Below, piece after piece: positions 2,770 through 21,287 of a DNA stretch of 23,084 bases (position 1 is its first letter; each line of letters starts with the position of its first letter). The notes under the pieces were generated by a model. The model was not told where the DNA came from. It was given only the letters and a program-made list of their open reading frames with translations, and searched no databases. This DNA is from a virus: the IMG/VR virus record IMGVR_UViG_3300037189_020131, positions 1 to 23,084 of that record. One strand, 5' to 3'. The position numbers and the translations under genes were made by a program.

Positions 2770-3216
2770 ATGAATACATATGAAATGGATGGTCAGTATG
2801 TGAAGTGGGTGCCCGATTTGATGGTTGAGATAGAGTTGGATACTCCAGATGCTTTCTTGTTGGCTAAAGAAACACTCACACGAATCGGTGTTGCATCTAG
2901 ATATAAAAAAGAACTATATCAAACTGCACATATTTTATACAAAACTGGAAAATATTATTTGATTCATTATAAGTTTGGTTTCTGTTTGGATTCTAGATCT
3001 GCTACTATTAGCCAAAATGATCTAGAGAGATTGCATACGATTGCACATCTACTGGAGCAATGGGGCCTATTGCGTGTTAAAAATCCAGATCAGATCGAAG
3101 ATAGAGCACCGTTGAATCAAATTAAAATAATTTCATATAAAGAAAAATCCGAATGGAATCTAGTTGAGAAATATTCTCTAGGTAATAAAAAAGCCGACCG
3201 CACTAAAGTTGATTAG
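2770..3216 (+). CDS. regA: RegA translational repressor
   Basis: The protein has 148 residues. From residue 18 it follows T4 RegA closely: MVEIELDTPDAFLLAKETLTRIG, then LYQTAHIL, YYLIHYK, a conserved LLEQWGL, and EWNLVEKYSLGN near the C-terminus. RegA binds AU-rich sites at the start codons of early phage mRNAs and represses their translation. T4 RegA has 122 residues and begins at the position of Met18 here, so this protein has an N-terminal extension of 17 residues and a short basic C-terminal tail. I kept the ATG at 2770 because GAGG (2761-2764) sits just upstream. The ATG at 2821 is the alternative. Likely targets include its neighbours, such as the gp45 and gp44 messages. Confidence 0.92.
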   Translation: MNTYEMDGQYVKWVPDLMVEIELDTPDAFLLAKETLTRIGVASRYKKELYQTAHILYKTGKYYLIHYKFGFCLDSRSATISQNDLERLHTIAHLLEQWGLLRVKNPDQIEDRAPLNQIKIISYKEKSEWNLVEKYSLGNKKADRTKVD

Positions 3217-3246
3217 GGATTCCCGTACTTTTGTTCGGTTTTCTAC
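3188..3246 (+). terminator. Possible weak terminator after regA
   Basis: AGCCGA (3192-3197) can pair with TCGGTT (3235-3240), followed by TTTCT-type bases. The loop is long (37 bases) and contains the small palindrome GGGATTCCC. This is a weak candidate with no compact GC-rich stem. Confidence 0.25.
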
Positions 3247-3269
3247 ACTTGTAAAATTTTAATATTCAT

Positions 3270-3277
3270 GATAAATA
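3270..3277 (+). promoter_or_regulatory. T4-late-like promoter box upstream of hsp20
   Basis: GATAAATA lies in the 122-base gap between regA and hsp20, 61 bases before the hsp20 start. If it works as in T4, transcription would begin near 3283, at the edge of a perfect inverted repeat. Confidence 0.5.
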
Positions 3278-3280
3278 TGA

Positions 3281-3310
3281 GTAAGAAGTTGCTTTTTAAG
3301 GACTTCTTAC
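3281..3310 (+). repeat. Perfect inverted repeat in the hsp20 5' leader
   Basis: GTAAGAAGT (3281-3289) and ACTTCTTAC (3302-3310) form a perfect 9-bp stem with a 12-base loop. No T-tract follows, so it is not an ordinary terminator. It would sit at the very 5' end of a transcript from the box at 3270. Confidence 0.7.
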
Positions 3311-3338
3311 TACAAACTCGCTTATTAAGGAGATTATA

Positions 3339-3770
3339 ATGAACAAATTAGCAAAATTTACTGCACCAACTTTAGTTAAATTATTTAATGATATTGATAG
3401 AACTTCAATTGGATTAGATAATTTTTTCGATACCTTATATGCAACAGAACATATACATGACAATTATCCTCCATATAACTTAATTAAAGAAACGGATACT
3501 CAATATAGACTTGAGTTGGCTGCATCTGGATTTAAACCTAACGAATTGACAGTATTTACTGAGAATAACCAATTGGTAGTAGAGTCAACGAAATCAAATG
3601 AAAAAGAAATTGAATACATTCATCGATCATTATCTACTCGGAATTTTAGACGAGTTTGGACACTCTATGATCATGTTATGGTTAAAGAAGTTTCATTTGA
3701 AGCTGGTTTATTGACTATAATCTTAGAAAAGGTTATACCCGAACAACAAAAAAGAAAAATATTTTTTTAA
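3339..3770 (+). CDS. hsp20: Small heat-shock protein, Hsp20/alpha-crystallin family
   Basis: The protein has 143 residues. After a short N-terminal arm it carries PPYNLIKETDTQYRLELA (45-62) and AASGFKPNELTVF, the usual start of the alpha-crystallin domain in IbpA-like proteins. HRSLSTRNFRRVW and GLLTIIL with a Pro-rich end follow. Hsp20 proteins hold unfolding proteins as ATP-independent oligomeric chaperones. A member is commonly carried by T4-like marine phages, where a role in capsid assembly or host stress has been proposed but not proven. The start is well supported by AAGGAG (3327-3332) 6 bases upstream of the ATG. It stands alone between two promoters, behind a late-like box and a leader hairpin. 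Confidence 0.93.
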   Translation: MNKLAKFTAPTLVKLFNDIDRTSIGLDNFFDTLYATEHIHDNYPPYNLIKETDTQYRLELAASGFKPNELTVFTENNQLVVESTKSNEKEIEYIHRSLSTRNFRRVWTLYDHVMVKEVSFEAGLLTIILEKVIPEQQKRKIFF

Positions 3771-10079: not shown

Positions 10080-10700
10080 ATGTACGAATTAGTAGAATTC
10101 TTGATAGGGGAACAGTATTGCTATTCTGAAAAAGAAGCATATAAAATCATAGAAAGTGTCAGTGATGATTTTTATAATCATTTAGTGGAAGAAAGTGATG
10201 GATATTCCGATAAGGCTAAGCAGGTAAGAACATTAAATACAGAACTACAAAACCCAAGAACTTCTTCCGCTAGGCAGCAAGAAATTCGTATTGCTTTAGC
10301 AAAATTAGGTAGAGAAAGAAGAATAGAAACACAGGGTCAAACTGCATTAAAAAAAATTCAAGGAAAAGAAACTAAACCGAGAGCTTCAAGTGGTAGAGCA
10401 CAAACCACGGATATTGGTGTTACTAAAACAGCAGAAGCCAAAGCAAAAGCGCGAGGTATTTCCATGACCGGATCTACACTAAATAACCCAAGAGTTGCAT
10501 CTGCTGCGTCCAGGGAGGCATCTAGATTGACTGGTACTACTGCGGAAGTGGGAAGAGCCGGTGGTTCTAGTCAATCTACTGGCGTTGTTAGAACTGGTAA
10601 ATATTCCGATATGCAAGTTGGTGGCAGGGCAACTGCTTCTACTCCAAATCGAGGACAATCGAGAACTGGTGTGAGATTTCCACGACAATTGGGTGAATAA
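10080..10700 (+). CDS. Basic low-complexity protein, candidate head or internal virion protein
   Basis: The protein has 206 residues. The N-terminal 45 are acidic and helical (MYELVEFLIGE, then SEKEAYKIIESVSDDFY). The remainder is basic, low in hydrophobic residues and rich in Arg, Lys, Ala, Gly, Ser and Thr, with no catalytic motif. The N-terminus loosely recalls the T4 capsid-targeting pattern: EFLIGE fits the prohead protease rule (Leu/Ile)-x-Glu with cleavage after Glu11. That is inference only. It opens the late block and is followed 11 bases later by the nucleotidyltransferase-fold gene, which carries a clearer targeting sequence. There is no Shine-Dalgarno sequence. A DNA-associated internal head protein is the most economical guess. 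Confidence 0.72.
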   Translation: MYELVEFLIGEQYCYSEKEAYKIIESVSDDFYNHLVEESDGYSDKAKQVRTLNTELQNPRTSSARQQEIRIALAKLGRERRIETQGQTALKKIQGKETKPRASSGRAQTTDIGVTKTAEAKAKARGISMTGSTLNNPRVASAASREASRLTGTTAEVGRAGGSSQSTGVVRTGKYSDMQVGGRATASTPNRGQSRTGVRFPRQLGE

Positions 10701-10711: not shown

Positions 10712-11944
10712 ATGAAAAAATATTTAGAATTTATAGTTGAAGCACGGGGATCTAGAGCAGCTGAAAAAGCAGCTCAGTTTAATTTAGTGAGTGATAATCA
10801 TGGTATGTGGGTCGATAGATCAGGTAGACCAGTTGCAAAAACTGTAAAGGGTGATTTAGTATTTTTAAGAAAAAAATCACCAAAACCACAAAAAGTTGAA
10901 ACACCTAAGTCTCCACCAAAACCAGCAAAAAGACAGGATCCGCCACTACAAAAAAGAGTTTCGGCTGAAAGACAGGTAAATCCACCCAAAGAAGAACCTG
11001 GGGCACCAGAGATTGATCCCCAAAATACACTTACTGTTGTTTTTGGTAGGTTTAATCCACCAACTATAGGTCACGAAAGATTAATCAAGAAAGCAAACGA
11101 GATTGCACAGGGTAAAGATTTAAAAATATATCCATCTAGAATGTATGGTGATCCATTAAATCCTCTAGATCCACCTACAAAAATATTTTATATGAGAAAG
11201 GCATTTCCCAAATTTGCCGATAATATTATTAATGATGATGATATGAAAAGTATTTTTGATGTATTAGTGTCGGCAGAGGAGAGTGGATATAATTCTGTAA
11301 ATATCGTAACCGGTATAAAAAGAAAAGCAGAAATTGATAGATTATCTAATCAATATAATGGAGAAATTTATAACTTATCTTCTATTAATGTGATTCCTTT
11401 GGATAGTGAAGATCCAGACTTGGAAAATAGTCCAAATCCAACTTCTGCATCAAAGTTAAGGAAAAATGCGGTCGAAGATAATTTCTTTGATTTTCAAAAA
11501 GGACTACCTAAAAATTTGGATGATAAACAACAAAAAAGTCTATTCTTTGCTGTTCAGCGAGCACTTGAAGGCGAATTGCAAAATGAATCATGGAAATTTG
11601 CACCTAAACTTAGTTTTAATCCTTTGAAGGAAGCATATTATCAAGAGAAAATATTTAAGACTGGTGACGTTGTAGAAAATCTTAATACTGGATTGACTGG
11701 TAAGATTATTCGAAGAGGTCCAAATTATGTAATATGTGTAAATGAAAAATATAACATAATGTTTAAGTCTTGGATTCTTGATATCAGAGAGTGGACGGAA
11801 GTTTCTGGTGTTCCAGCTAATCAACGAGAAGTTGGTACTGATGCATTAAGAGACTATGTGATGAAGTTGACTAAAACTGATGTCATATCAAACTTTATAA
11901 ATAAGAGAAAGAAAAAGCTAAATAATAAAAAGATTCCAATATAA
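10712..11944 (+). CDS. Nucleotidyltransferase-fold protein with T4-type capsid-targeting N-terminus
   Basis: The protein has 410 residues in distinct parts. Residues 1-10 (MKKYLEFIVE) match the T4 internal-protein capsid-targeting sequence MKTYQEFIAE at 7 of 10 positions and end in an I-x-E prohead protease site before Ala11. A Pro/Lys-rich linker covers about 55-100. A cytidylyltransferase-like domain follows, with FGRFNPPTIGH (111-121, the HxGH-type nucleotide-binding motif with Thr in the first position) and TSASKLRK (244-251), which fits the second ISxTxxR-type motif. Residues 316-356 (GDVVENLNTGLTG through FKSWI) look like a small SH3/KOW-type barrel, and the tail is basic. Relatives in T4-like marine phages are annotated as cytidylyltransferases. 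I infer that it is packaged in the head and injected. The substrate is unknown. Confidence 0.88.
   Translation: MKKYLEFIVEARGSRAAEKAAQFNLVSDNHGMWVDRSGRPVAKTVKGDLVFLRKKSPKPQKVETPKSPPKPAKRQDPPLQKRVSAERQVNPPKEEPGAPEIDPQNTLTVVFGRFNPPTIGHERLIKKANEIAQGKDLKIYPSRMYGDPLNPLDPPTKIFYMRKAFPKFADNIINDDDMKSIFDVLVSAEESGYNSVNIVTGIKRKAEIDRLSNQYNGEIYNLSSINVIPLDSEDPDLENSPNPTSASKLRKNAVEDNFFDFQKGLPKNLDDKQQKSLFFAVQRALEGELQNESWKFAPKLSFNPLKEAYYQEKIFKTGDVVENLNTGLTGKIIRRGPNYVICVNEKYNIMFKSWILDIREWTEVSGVPANQREVGTDALRDYVMKLTKTDVISNFINKRKKKLNNKKIPI
11896..11924 (+). promoter_or_regulatory. Two possible late-like boxes inside the end of the preceding gene
   Basis: TATAAATA (11896-11903) and GCTAAATA (11917-11924) lie 45 and 24 bases before the ATG at 11949. 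Both are inside the Lys-rich coding end of the previous gene, where AT-rich codons make chance matches common. Confidence 0.35.
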
Positions 11945-11948
11945 AATT

Positions 11949-13181
11949 ATGTCAGAACGTATTGTAAATGCTCTTGATGCAATGAAGCAATTGTACCTAG
12001 AAACTATCGGTTCAAATGATCTAACTCAACAAAGAATCAATGAACAAACCGAACAAATCGAAGAATATAAAAATTCAAAATTAGATCCGGTTGGAAAAGA
12101 GGATTCTGATGTTGATAATGATGGTGATGTAGACAAATCAGATAAGTACCTAAAAAATAGAAGAAAAGTTATATCAGACAAAATTGGTAAAAAAATTGTT
12201 GCTGAAATGAAGAGATTGGAGAATATTGAAATACCAAATACTGAGGATTTTGCTTTACACGTAAAACCACCAATAAGTGAGGCTTCACATTATCAGTGGA
12301 GAAATGATATCGGAGAGAAAGTTCTCTGGGAGATTCTTGGCACTGATGAGGAAAATGCTAAACAAGTAAAGGAAAAAAAAGTAAATAATTATTCGGGTAA
12401 AAATCCGGTAATTAAAATTAACCCTGAAACTAAGGCTGAGATTTCTGAAAAATATAAACTAGTTGAATCAGAGGAAATGAATGAAGAATTCATTGAAGAA
12501 GCCATTGATGTAGCCGCTAATTATCTTTGCTTAGAAGGATTATCAGAACAAGATGTTGTCGATCTTGTTGATGAATTAGGTGTGGAAGAATTTTCCGAAT
12601 GGATTCTTGATATTGGTTATCAAAAAATACAAGAAGAAGCTCGACAGGGTGAATTATTGACCAAGGATCTAAAAGCAAGAAAAAATCCACAAACTACAAA
12701 TCGCCCTGGTGCTTCATCCGTAATTTCACATACACCATCAGTTAATAAGAGTGAAAAAACAAAAACTAATTCTAAAACATCACAAGGGCAGTTAAGTATT
12801 GATTATAGCCGACCAGCCAAAAAGCCTTTACCGCCTGGACAGGAAAGAATCATTAAAGCGGCTAAATCAACCGCTAAAAAAATGACATCACCCGAAACCG
12901 TAAAACCAATTCTTAGAGGTGCATTGGATACTGCTGCTAGAGCCGCTCTTTCTGGTTGGGCGGGACATAAGGCAGCAATGGCAACACAAAAGAAGGGTGG
13001 AACTGCTGGACAGGCTATCCGAAAAGGACTTGGGGCTGCAGCCTCCTCTTTCTTTAAGAAAGGCTCTGAGCATTTCAAGGAATGGGTAGATGAACTTCTT
13101 GATGAAGGTTACGATCTTTCAGATTGGACTTGGGATGAGCTATACGAAGAATACGAAATCTTTCAAAAAAAATCTGTTTAA
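11949..13181 (+). CDS. Hypothetical late protein with EF-hand/dockerin-like calcium loop
   Basis: The protein has 410 residues and no recognised enzyme domain. Residues 54-65 read DVDNDGDVDKSD, matching a calcium-binding loop with Asp at positions 1, 3, 5 and 12, Gly at 6 and a hydrophobic residue at 8. A basic YLKNRRK stretch follows. Residues 112-165 contain SHYQWRNDIGEKVLWEILG, a pattern I associate with phage proteins of this group. An acidic helical stretch covers about 172-230, a basic Pro/Lys-rich region and an Ala/Gly-rich basic segment about 235-375, and an acidic tail (DELLDEGYDLSDWTWDELYE) ends the protein. Several (Leu/Ile)-x-Glu sites (for example ISE-A at 109-112) would fit processing by a prohead protease. 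A virion or head role is inferred from charge layout and context. Confidence 0.72.
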   Translation: MSERIVNALDAMKQLYLETIGSNDLTQQRINEQTEQIEEYKNSKLDPVGKEDSDVDNDGDVDKSDKYLKNRRKVISDKIGKKIVAEMKRLENIEIPNTEDFALHVKPPISEASHYQWRNDIGEKVLWEILGTDEENAKQVKEKKVNNYSGKNPVIKINPETKAEISEKYKLVESEEMNEEFIEEAIDVAANYLCLEGLSEQDVVDLVDELGVEEFSEWILDIGYQKIQEEARQGELLTKDLKARKNPQTTNRPGASSVISHTPSVNKSEKTKTNSKTSQGQLSIDYSRPAKKPLPPGQERIIKAAKSTAKKMTSPETVKPILRGALDTAARAALSGWAGHKAAMATQKKGGTAGQAIRKGLGAAASSFFKKGSEHFKEWVDELLDEGYDLSDWTWDELYEEYEIFQKKSV

Positions 13182-13265: not shown

Positions 13266-14096
13266 ATGGCTTTATGGGGGGCAAAGGATAATATCGGTGC
13301 TAATGGCACAGTGTCACTTAACTACGCTACGCTAGTTGTTACTGGGGCTGGCACAAGTTTTGGACAAGTAGGTGCAGCTGGAACTGGTGATGTGATTCGG
13401 TTTGGTCTACGGGCCGGGACTTATTTTGGTGATGCTGTGATTGTTGGTATTGCAAGCACCACAACACTTTCAATTGCAAGCACAACTGGTTTAAGGGGTA
13501 CTGCGATTGCTAGTACTAGTTTTACTGTAAGTCAGTTACCTAAATCTTCTATTTTAGATTCGCATTACACTAAATTAGCTGGTGTTAATACTGGATATGA
13601 TGCTCTTGTTTATGGTGCAGACGTAACAGAAACACAAGCAAGTGTAGAAACAACATATTCATTAACACATGCTGGTTGGGTCGGAATTACCACATATATG
13701 TGTGACGGCGTGATGCGAGTAAAGACAGAAACTCTAGTCGCAATGTCTAGCATTGAGAGTGATTCATCTGATGATCTCGTTCTACCTGATGCTGCTGTCG
13801 TCATCTTGATACAACCACAATCTATTGGTGTTGGAACTACTGGAACCGCAAGATTTAATGTAGTTGTTGAAATAATTCCATCAACTATACCACCAACTTA
13901 TCAGTGGCAATATTCTAGCACTGGAGTTGCATATACTGCTCTGACTAATAATGCTACATATTCAGGAACTACTACTGCTGGATTGGCTGTAACAAATACT
14001 AGCTCTTTATTGAATAACCATAGATATAGGGTGGTGGTTAGTGCAGCCGGTGCTACTAGTGTGACATCAGATCCTGCAATTATGACCGTTTCTTGA
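13266..14096 (+). CDS. Virion structural protein with C-terminal Ig-like domain
   Basis: The protein has 276 residues, is Gly/Ala/Thr/Val-rich and strand-rich, with few charged residues. This is typical of a virion decoration or neck/tail protein. The start MALWGAKDN is a pattern I associate with a structural protein of T4-like marine phages. Residues 1-90 have repeated short beta motifs (TLVVTGAGTSFG, GDVIRFG, STTTLSIAS). From about residue 186 a separate domain begins with VGTTGTARFNVVVE and includes PTYQWQYSSTG and HRYRVVVSAAGATSVTS, a good match to an Ig-like fold often used for surface binding. No catalytic motif is visible. Its stop overlaps an upstream TTG in the next gene. Confidence 0.85.
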   Translation: MALWGAKDNIGANGTVSLNYATLVVTGAGTSFGQVGAAGTGDVIRFGLRAGTYFGDAVIVGIASTTTLSIASTTGLRGTAIASTSFTVSQLPKSSILDSHYTKLAGVNTGYDALVYGADVTETQASVETTYSLTHAGWVGITTYMCDGVMRVKTETLVAMSSIESDSSDDLVLPDAAVVILIQPQSIGVGTTGTARFNVVVEIIPSTIPPTYQWQYSSTGVAYTALTNNATYSGTTTAGLAVTNTSSLLNNHRYRVVVSAAGATSVTSDPAIMTVS

Positions 14097-14104
14097 GTTT
14101 AAAA

Positions 14105-14491
14105 ATGTTTTTTGATGAACTGAGTGAAGAAAATTTTCTTTTATTTGCAATAAAGAATTACAATAATCCCCAGGGATTAACTGAAGAAGATTTTTATAAA
14201 GATCTAAATCATTTTAAATATATCAAAAGGCATTTAAAAAAATATAAGGTTTCGGGAGAATTGAAAATACATCTTCTCCTGAAACACTTTATTATTTTAT
14301 ATAATATTTTTGGTGATGCAACGACCCCAATGTTATTCTTCAAGGTTCCGAATAATTTGTGGAGTTCAATGAAAACTTTCATTGTTTTTTTAAATAGACT
14401 TCCCGAATATCCAAAATGCTATATTCATGAGATTGAATTTGATTCATTTTGTATGGAAAAATTACAGGAGATCGTTAATGGAAAAGATTGA
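14105..14491 (+). CDS. Conserved phage protein of DUF7207-like type
   Basis: The protein has 128 residues, is helical and soluble. The first part holds FLLFAIKNYNNPQ, EEDFYKDLNHFKYIKRHLKKY and GELKIHLLLKHFIILYNIFG. Then come MLFFKV and a hydrophobic FIVFLNRLPEYP. This pattern is one I know from a small protein conserved among T4-like marine phages. The DUF number is from memory, and the function is unknown. I chose the ATG at 14105, 8 bases after the structural gene stop. A TTG at 14093 would add four residues and overlap that gene. The end overlaps the next gene by 14 bases, suggesting coupled translation of a structural cluster. Confidence 0.78.
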   Translation: MFFDELSEENFLLFAIKNYNNPQGLTEEDFYKDLNHFKYIKRHLKKYKVSGELKIHLLLKHFIILYNIFGDATTPMLFFKVPNNLWSSMKTFIVFLNRLPEYPKCYIHEIEFDSFCMEKLQEIVNGKD

Positions 14492-14705
14492 TGAAATTAT
14501 AAAATTAGTAAGAGAAGAAATGACCGTAGCGAATCAACCTGGACAATCAGGTGGATTCGGTGAAAAATCACCAAGCGAAGGTCCAACTGCAGGAGTTTCA
14601 CAACCAATGTTTGGTTTACCTATAAAAAGAAATGGTAAATTAGATAACAGAAACTCTTTTATTAAAAAGTACCAAACTTTATTAAAGTCTTTGGGATTGG
14701 TTTAG
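14478..14705 (+). CDS. Small conserved hypothetical protein
   Basis: The protein has 75 residues starting at an ATG with a good Shine-Dalgarno AGGAG (14466-14470). The in-frame ATG at 14427 lies inside the preceding gene and would add 17 unrelated residues. Layout: an N-terminal charged helix (MEKIDEIIKLVREEM), a Gly/Pro/Ser-rich flexible middle, and a C-terminal basic helix (FIKKYQTLLKSLGLV). There is no membrane segment or catalytic motif. The helix-linker-helix layout would suit a small adaptor or assembly protein, but this is a guess. It is the last plus-strand gene of the late block and faces a minus-strand gene only 4 bases away. Confidence 0.75.
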   Translation: MEKIDEIIKLVREEMTVANQPGQSGGFGEKSPSEGPTAGVSQPMFGLPIKRNGKLDNRNSFIKKYQTLLKSLGLV

Positions 14706-20027: not shown

Positions 20028-21287
20028 ATGACAATTTACAGTCTCACTGAAGCCTATTCTGAAATTTATGATTTAAGAAAAGTAGAAGAGATCGATGATA
20101 ATCTCCGCTTTATTGATTATATGCTTGATGAGGATATTGAGGAAGTGGTCGAATCTTTAGTTTGGGAATTCCGTGATTATGGAAATACTTTAGATGAATC
20201 TTTTGATCTACTTGAATATTCTGCTAGCAGTGAAGTAATTAATGAATCTTATACTCAAATTATAGAAGATCTTCTAAATGAAGCAACTGTCACATATGGT
20301 AGGGGTGACGTTCTTGCAAATAAAGCAAAAGCAGATGAACTAGCAAAAAGAAATAAAGATAGAAGTACTGCACAAAGAAAAGAAGTTAGACGAGCCAGAG
20401 TTGATGGTGCAATTAGTAAAGTAAAGGCTGCTATGGCTGGTGCCAAAGGTGGTATGGGTCGGGCTTCCAAGGCTTTAGGTGGTGCAGTTAGTAAAGGCCG
20501 GAATCTAGTTGGCGCTGTCGCACAAAAGGGTAAGGCTCTACTTGGCCGACTTCTTCGCAAGGGTGCCAGCGCAACAGGAAAGGTAGTATCTGGTGTTGGT
20601 AAGACCATACAGAAAAGTGGTGAAACTGCTGCATCAGCATCCAGAGCCGAAAGAACTGTCAGAGTCCCAGGTGGTGAGTATGTAAGAGATCCAGGTGGTA
20701 GTAAGAGACAAACTGTAGGAAAAGCCGTTCGTAAAGTCGGAGTCGCCTTACAGAGAATGAGTAAAGGTGAAAAATCTACTCCAACAAAACCAGAAGCCCC
20801 TAAAATGAAGGCTTTACCTCCAGCTAGACCAGAGACAGAAAATCGTCGTGCAGCAGTACAAAGAAAACTTGATACTGCAAATAAAGGATCTACTGGTGAT
20901 AAAAGAGTGGGTTCCCCTTCTCCTACGTTGGCTTTACCAGCAAAAACTTCCGGCAAACCCGCCGTAGAGAGAGCTATTTCACAACGCAAACTACAAGCCG
21001 CTGCTAAATTACAAAGATCTGCAACTGGATCTCGGGCTCGTGGGGTAAGATTTGCTGGCCCTAATTCAAAATTATCTTCCACCAGAACCAATACTGGATA
21101 TAAAGAAAAGCTTGCAAAATTTGCCAGTAAATTAAACAATGAAGATTATGAAATTTTAATTGATTATATTATTGAGGATATAATTTCTTCTGGATATGCT
21201 TTAGATGAGATGGCTGCTCTTGATATATTTGAAAATCTTACTGAAGATACTATTGCCGACATCGCATTAGAATATCTTAACGACTGA
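20028..21287 (+). CDS. Large basic, histone-H1-like protein, candidate processed internal head protein
   Basis: The protein has 419 residues in three clear parts. Residues 1-85 are highly acidic and helical. Residues about 95-365 are basic and rich in Ala, Gly and Lys (for example GAKGGMGRASKALGGAVSKG), with no globular domain, like a histone H1 tail. The final ~60 residues are again acidic (NNEDYEILIDYIIEDII). DLLNE at 81-85 followed by Ala fits the prohead protease rule (Leu-x-Glu), as does LTE-A at 6-9. Cleavage after Glu85 would release the basic body from its acidic leader. I infer a DNA-binding protein packaged in the capsid; no family is recognised. The long antisense frame here is a by-product of its codon bias. 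Its stop overlaps the next small ORF as TGATG. Confidence 0.8.
   Translation: MTIYSLTEAYSEIYDLRKVEEIDDNLRFIDYMLDEDIEEVVESLVWEFRDYGNTLDESFDLLEYSASSEVINESYTQIIEDLLNEATVTYGRGDVLANKAKADELAKRNKDRSTAQRKEVRRARVDGAISKVKAAMAGAKGGMGRASKALGGAVSKGRNLVGAVAQKGKALLGRLLRKGASATGKVVSGVGKTIQKSGETAASASRAERTVRVPGGEYVRDPGGSKRQTVGKAVRKVGVALQRMSKGEKSTPTKPEAPKMKALPPARPETENRRAAVQRKLDTANKGSTGDKRVGSPSPTLALPAKTSGKPAVERAISQRKLQAAAKLQRSATGSRARGVRFAGPNSKLSSTRTNTGYKEKLAKFASKLNNEDYEILIDYIIEDIISSGYALDEMAALDIFENLTEDTIADIALEYLND

Follow-up and report, generated by a model that had tools for sequence, protein, structure and literature searches.

Genomic context of the tagged protein

The locus raises the question of whether a phage carries an enzyme in its head and delivers it into the host together with the DNA. 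The first-pass annotation had suggested that the phage injects a nucleotide- or cofactor-modifying enzyme at the start of infection, on the basis of a phage T4-type capsid-targeting sequence (CTS) at the N-terminus of a protein with a nucleotidyltransferase fold. Our analysis supports this reading, and the protein is likely a head-packaged enzyme which is injected with the DNA and acts as a nucleotidylyltransferase (NTase). The tag identity, its conservation at functional positions, the protease in the genome and the conserved enzyme motifs are shown; cleavage, injection, catalytic activity in the host and the substrate are inferred.

The window, i.e. the whole stretch of 23,084 nucleotides analysed here, is about 98.7% identical to Synechococcus phage B23 (Kyanoviridae, 243.6 kb) over 19.3 kb, with 97.9% over the first 3.2 kb. 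Separately, about 560 bases of the window (3189-3754) have no B23 counterpart at this place, with an Hsp20-like ORF (3339-3770) inside. The 410-aa ORF starts with MKKYLEFIVEARGSRAAEKAAQ, and its first eleven codons (10712-10744, + strand) encode M-K-K-Y-L-E-F-I-V-E-A. It is arranged as follows.

10712..11944, +: 410-aa protein consisting of CTS, small module, linker, nucleotidylyltransferase domain, SH3/KOW-like C-terminal domain and tail (B23 orthologue, phrog_395, T4-GC190)
10712..10741, +: CTS MKKYLEFIVE, with predicted gp21-type cleavage after Glu10 (T4 IPII/IPIII match, homologue conservation)
10742..10744, +: Ala11, the predicted new N-terminus (Ala in 69/85 homologues)
10754..10876, +: small alpha+beta 'DGHGxW' module, about residues 15-55 (HMM matches, pLDDT)
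11021..11578, +: nucleotidylyltransferase fold, residues 104-289, with GRFNPPTxGH and SASKLRK motifs (VIA-align, conserved motif columns)
11615..11791, +: SH3/KOW-like C-terminal domain, residues 302-360 (AF2 model; a separate gene in P-HM1, S-WAM2 and S-CAM3)

The B23 orthologue b23_0308 (99.8%) is annotated as cytidylyltransferase, T4-GC190, and the S-SM1 orthologue SSM1_190 is likewise noted as T4-GC190. Sequence homology, with phrog_395 as the matching family (E=4e-80), and genomic position both place the window ORF in T4-GC190 / phrog_395. A tblastn search with the family gave matches in 518 phage records, nearly all of them cyanophages. The protein is the cyanophage core "cytidylyltransferase" common to most known T4-like cyanophages.

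Match of the N-terminus to the T4 packaging signal

In the T4 record, internal proteins IPII and IPIII begin with MKTYQEFIAEARVGAG and MKTYQEFIAEASVV, respectively. As had been claimed, the window tag MKKYLEFIVE is identical to their CTS, MKTYQEFIAE, at seven of ten positions; beyond the tag, Ala11 matches both proteins and Arg12 matches IPII. The tag possesses the aromatic residues of a T4-type targeting sequence (Tyr4 and Phe7) and, in Ile8-Val9-Glu10-Ala11, an L/I-x-E processing site. The proposed prohead protease site before Ala is thus present in the sequence, while cleavage between Glu10 and Ala11 is inferred. The T4 internal proteins IPI, IPII and IPIII share this ten-residue N-terminal tag with aromatics at positions 4 and 7 and I/L-x-E before the cut, as well as a gp21-type protease in the genome; they differ in being small basic proteins, whereas the cyanophage cargo is a 410-aa enzyme.

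This likeness is not due to chance. When 363 B23 ORFs were scored against the T4 CTS, 358 reached at most 4/10 and only three reached at least 7/10, namely the NTase and two small ORFs starting with MKTYREFISE (70 aa) and MKTYSQFITE (130 aa). The strict pattern occurred three times in B23 compared with 0.02-0.06 expected from shuffled N-termini, and at none of 1146 internal Met residues. In the S-SCSM1 genome, translated in six frames, the only match was at the NTase orthologue. A degenerate DNA pattern for this start matched the T4 genome at three places only, ipII, ipIII and 61.1.

Gene 61.1 (AF158101, 18966-19130) encodes gp61.1, a 54-aa protein with the CTS-like start MKTFKEFIKED that is not annotated as an internal protein, and a protein of Vibrio phage EniLVp02 has the GNP..I..G motif of gp61.1.

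Conservation of the tag across homologues

The expectation that homologues keep the first ten residues was confirmed. The pattern M-K-x-[FY]-x-x-F-[IL]-x-E is kept in 83 of 85 distinct homologue N-termini, with F/Y/L at position 4 in 82, F at position 7 in 81, E10 in 80 and A11 in 69. The E-F-I-x-E pattern anticipated by the first-pass annotation held only in part: its first Glu is not conserved, and the F-[IL]-x-E core is. Lys2, Phe4, Phe7, Leu/Ile8, Glu10 and Ala11 are conserved, while positions 3, 5, 6 and 9 vary. In an alignment of 55 members, the former columns (2, 4, 7, 8, 10 and 11) average 3.91 bits, compared with 3.11 in the enzyme domain, 1.97 in the remaining CTS columns and 1.53 in the linker. 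In T4, mutagenesis assigned residues 4 and 7 of the CTS to targeting and residues 8 and 10 to processing, and proteins fused to the CTS are carried into the host cell (PMC9026906). Since the conserved columns coincide with these targeting and processing residues, the NTase family conserves what T4 needs.

The tag is also kept without the module behind it in S-H34, S-CRM01, S-CREM2 and loci L091, L108 and L110, and is shortened in Melnitz-3 and locus L093. The free NTases of jumbo phage PBECO4 and phage XG4 lack it. In P-HM1, S-WAM2 and S-CAM3 the gene is split, so that the NTase and KOW-like parts are separate; the NTase part has no CTS, and the KOW genes start with MKSLADFTKK, MKDFKKLREEA or MKNFKRLREEA. 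No description of a CTS in cyanophages was found in the open-access literature searched, in which co-mention was limited to T4 work (PMC9026906) and the string 'MKTYQEF' was absent.

Virion presence, protease and neighbouring genes

Published mass spectrometry of relatives, not of the window phage, shows NTase orthologues in the virions of four phages: S-SM1 (PMC3037559), S-SCSM1 (ORF91, PMC9602691), S-SZBM1 (S-SZBM1_140, 2 peptides, PMC9146016) and S-CREM2 (ORF154, 3 unique peptides, PMC10665884). ORF91 is also marked as a virion protein in the S-SCSM1 genome record. For the window protein itself, presence in virions is inferred from these relatives. The T4-GC190 / phrog_395 family ('cytitidyltransferase', NMNAT-like), to which the window protein belongs, is thus a published virion protein, but the proteome papers give no packaging signal or mechanism, and the authors of two (S-SCSM1, PMC9602691; S-CREM2, PMC10665884) leave open the carry-over of abundant proteins in CsCl preparations.

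As the window is a fragment, protease and scaffold were looked for in the near-identical B23. The gp21-like protease that had been asked for is present there as Peptidase_S77 (164837-165487, E=2e-25), followed in gene order by a gp22-type T4-like scaffold (T4_CASP, E=1e-78) and gp23. Around the NTase of S-SCSM1, genes 89-93 are all annotated as virion proteins, and several neighbours in the window have related features.

10080..10700, +: upstream basic protein, 206 aa, pI 9.8, CTS-like start MYELVEFLIGE (conserved upstream neighbour in close relatives; composition)
11949..13181, +: downstream protein, homologue of S-SCSM1 virion protein ORF92 (blastp E=8e-20)
13266..14096, +: homologue of S-SCSM1 virion protein ORF95 (blastp E=1e-42)
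14427..14705, +: homologue of S-SCSM1 virion protein ORF97 (blastp E=6e-6)

The product of 10080..10700 is, by inference, a probable internal head protein. ORFs similar to 11949..13181 are present in many NTase loci.

Some further features of these neighbours were observed. The 11949-13181 product holds an EF-hand-like DVDNDGDVDKSDKYLKNRR repeat, found beside the NTase in many loci. A GGFxG...(E/G)GP(T/V)AG motif occurs in the small virion proteins encoded by window 14427-14705, S-SCSM1 ORF97 and S-CREM2 gp160, and in the N-terminal arm of gp23. The S-SCSM1 virion protein ORF93 (91626-91835) has a CTS-like C-terminal end, RTFKEFLEYIE.

The enzyme domain and its possible substrate

The AF2 model (mean pLDDT 81) comprises a low-confidence CTS helix and linker, the module, the NTase domain (residues 104-289) and the SH3/KOW-like domain (302-360). 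In VIA-align, the NTase domain was closest to PPAT/CoaD (6b7a; Z 13.8, rmsd 2.7, 151 residues) and NMNAT (1m8j; Z 13.7), a tie by structure. The window protein contains GRFNPPTIGH (residues 112-121) and SASKLR (245-250), so the claimed intact HxGH-like and S-x-x-K-L-R motifs held, the first being TxGH rather than HxGH. GRFNPP, His121, Ser245, Arg250, Gly201 and Arg204 do not vary among 55 diverse homologues. Residue 203 is Asp in 50 of the 55 and Lys in the B23 clade, where activity may differ because of this replacement.

The Pfam model PF01467 (CTP_transf_like) scored 15.3 bits, below its gathering score of 21; placement in the HIGH-type nucleotidylyltransferase superfamily therefore relies on the fold and the (T/H)xGH and S-x-x-x-x-R motifs. 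PPAT (CoaD) and NMNAT (NadM) share the fold, GxFxP, (T/H)xGH and an S-x-x-x-x-R-type motif with the window protein, but identity in structural alignments is only 11-19% and none of the equivalog models passes its cut-off. Naming the substrate by sequence failed: no NCBIfam equivalog reached its cut-off (the NMNAT models TIGR00482 and TIGR01526 were far below, and no model for PPAT was among those listed), the PDB sequence search gave E 0.2 or worse, and the structure does not separate PPAT from NMNAT. Since B23 already has separate genes annotated as NMNAT and NAMPT (gp46, gp49), a plain NAD-salvage duty would be redundant. On expression timing, one paper offers only an entry for a 'glycerol-3-phosphate cytidylyltransferase' that follows a daily rhythm.

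A conserved L-x-E at residues 305-307 ('LKEAY') was considered as a second protease site and rejected; the next residue is Asn in 39 of 55 homologues and the site lies inside a confident helix, and it is probably structural. In a relative from a Vibrio T4-like phage (locus L129, 2623-3510), TAAH replaces TxGH, the enzyme domain is immediately preceded by LVE|A, and a KWDG-bearing protein is encoded upstream.

Proposed mechanism

In the favoured model, the first ten residues would bind the prohead scaffold core, as the CTS of T4 internal proteins does, and the phage's own gp21-type protease would cut after Glu10; no cleavage data exist for any member. The enzyme would stay in the head with the DNA, which agrees with the virion data for four orthologues, and would be ejected with the genome into the cyanobacterium, a step for which no member has injection data. 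There it may act at once as a nucleotidylyltransferase, the activity being inferred from the fold and motifs. It would most likely be an adenylyltransferase joining AMP to a small phosphorylated substrate, e.g. NMN or phosphopantetheine, although the evidence for the substrate is weak. Another enzyme that is packed into the head core and then ejected into the host is T4 Alt (PMC9026906), but it is an ADP-ribosyltransferase, not a nucleotidylyltransferase. The NTase would be one of several enzymes loaded by the tag; a CTS is also present on kinases, on HNH-like proteins and on a SAM hydrolase.

The tag rule in S-CREM2 and a shared module

The rule was applied to 155 annotated S-CREM2 genes from two stretches, with virion status taken from mass spectrometry. 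The CTS columns picked six N-termini, five of which belong to virion proteins compared with 27/155 overall (hypergeometric p=6e-4): SAM hydrolase gp6, gp13, kinase gp14, gp136 and NTase gp154. The columns were taken from the NTase family, and the p-value was calculated only once the N-termini had been inspected. Under a relaxed rule, which accepts the core anywhere in residues 1-30, the HNH-like 'Cas9' gp12 is gained as well (6/7, p=1e-4); this rule was framed after gp12 had been seen, so p=6e-4 is the fairer figure.

Behind the CTS lies a module of about 40 aa (consensus DGHGxW...G..VA.T..G.L) with a helix and three strands, predicted with a block pLDDT of 90-91 (residues 21-50). Its profile matches the kinases of S-N03 (6e-23) and MA10 (3e-24), with two copies each, S-CRM01 and S-CREM2 (6e-23), and the HNH-like proteins of ACG-2014f (3e-22), S-N03, MA10 and S-CREM2 (5e-15). 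The S-CRM01 kinase is also reported as a virion protein (PMC10665884). The S-CREM2 virion kinase, HNH protein ('Cas9') and SAM hydrolase and the S-CRM01 kinase thus resemble the window protein in their CTS-like N-terminus, and the kinases and HNH-like proteins also in the module; they are of other enzyme classes, and the CTS of the HNH-like protein lies about 20 residues in. The module gave no useful match by sequence and, predicted alone, no PDB match with Z>=2 among 67 chains compared, which does not show a new fold.

A bolder reading, towards which we lean slightly, is that unrelated enzymes of T4-like cyanophages, namely the nucleotidylyltransferase, a protein or small-molecule kinase and an HNH-like protein, have been fitted with a portable injection cassette (CTS plus DGHGxW module), and the SAM hydrolase with a bare CTS; a group of enzymes would then enter the host with the DNA and act before phage gene expression.

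The S-CREM2 virion SAM hydrolase (locus L130, 3837-5081, minus strand) has a CTS, MKDFDSFLEE, at its start; if packaged, this enzyme would affect host restriction at entry.

Alternative explanations

It remains possible that the enzyme acts together with a DUF6267 protein on nucleic acid ends (e.g. RNA or DNA end repair) rather than on the small precursor of a cofactor. In about 15 loci, including P-HM1, S-SM1 and Melnitz-3, the NTase is directly preceded by DUF6267, which has a ligase-like KWDG motif; a KWDG-bearing neighbour is also found in S-WAM2 and S-CAM3, and the phrog_455 profile, whose positions 5-345 match a DUF6267 protein and 413-723 the NTase, suggests fusions. Against this, B23 has no DUF6267 match, and the closest folds are small-molecule adenylyltransferases.

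It is unlikely that the protein is packaged by a real tag and serves head assembly or DNA condensation, the fold being a non-catalytic relic. In favour of such a role, T4 IPIII affects head morphogenesis (PMC9026906), the protein is basic (pI 9.5), the B23 clade has Lys203 where others mostly have Asp, and the Vibrio relative lacks the HxGH Gly. However, the six invariant elements of the enzyme domain are hard to explain without catalysis.

Very unlikely is a soluble auxiliary metabolic enzyme of NAD+ or CoA synthesis, with contamination behind the virion detection and a merely conserved N-terminal helix: the proteome authors raised contamination and peptides were few in S-SZBM1 and S-CREM2, but a variable, low-confidence linker separates the N-terminus from the enzyme, this N-terminus matches the T4 packaging signal at functional positions, recurs in virion proteins that are otherwise unrelated and, in S-CREM2, is a predictor of presence in the virion, and B23 already has annotated NMNAT and NAMPT genes.

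Implications and further candidates

Returning to the head-packaged enzyme, the tag suggests that cyanophages inject ready-made enzymes together with their DNA. Whether the enzymes detected in cyanophage virions are cargo or contaminants had been left undecided; a rule of ten residues whose genetics are known from T4 offers a direct test and makes cargo predictable from sequence alone in hundreds of sequenced cyanophages. T4-GC190, a core cyanophage gene of unknown role, becomes a candidate player in the first minutes after marine picocyanobacteria are infected. The rule also names further candidates, including small basic proteins resembling T4 internal proteins.

The two small B23 ORFs that also scored at least 7/10 against the T4 CTS are basic and lie beside baseplate genes at 122703-123304 (minus strand), starting with MKTYSQFITEAEKK (130 aa) and MKTYREFISEAPF (70 aa). 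They match no Pfam or PHROG family and have no counterpart inside the window; with their near-perfect T4-type CTS they are probable internal head proteins, an inference drawn only from their sequences. The window ORF 20028-21287, without a confident family, encodes 419 aa with acidic ends, a Lys/Arg/Gly/Ser-rich middle, pI 9.4 and LTEA at residue 8; on the same kind of inference, it could be a packaged DNA-binding protein.
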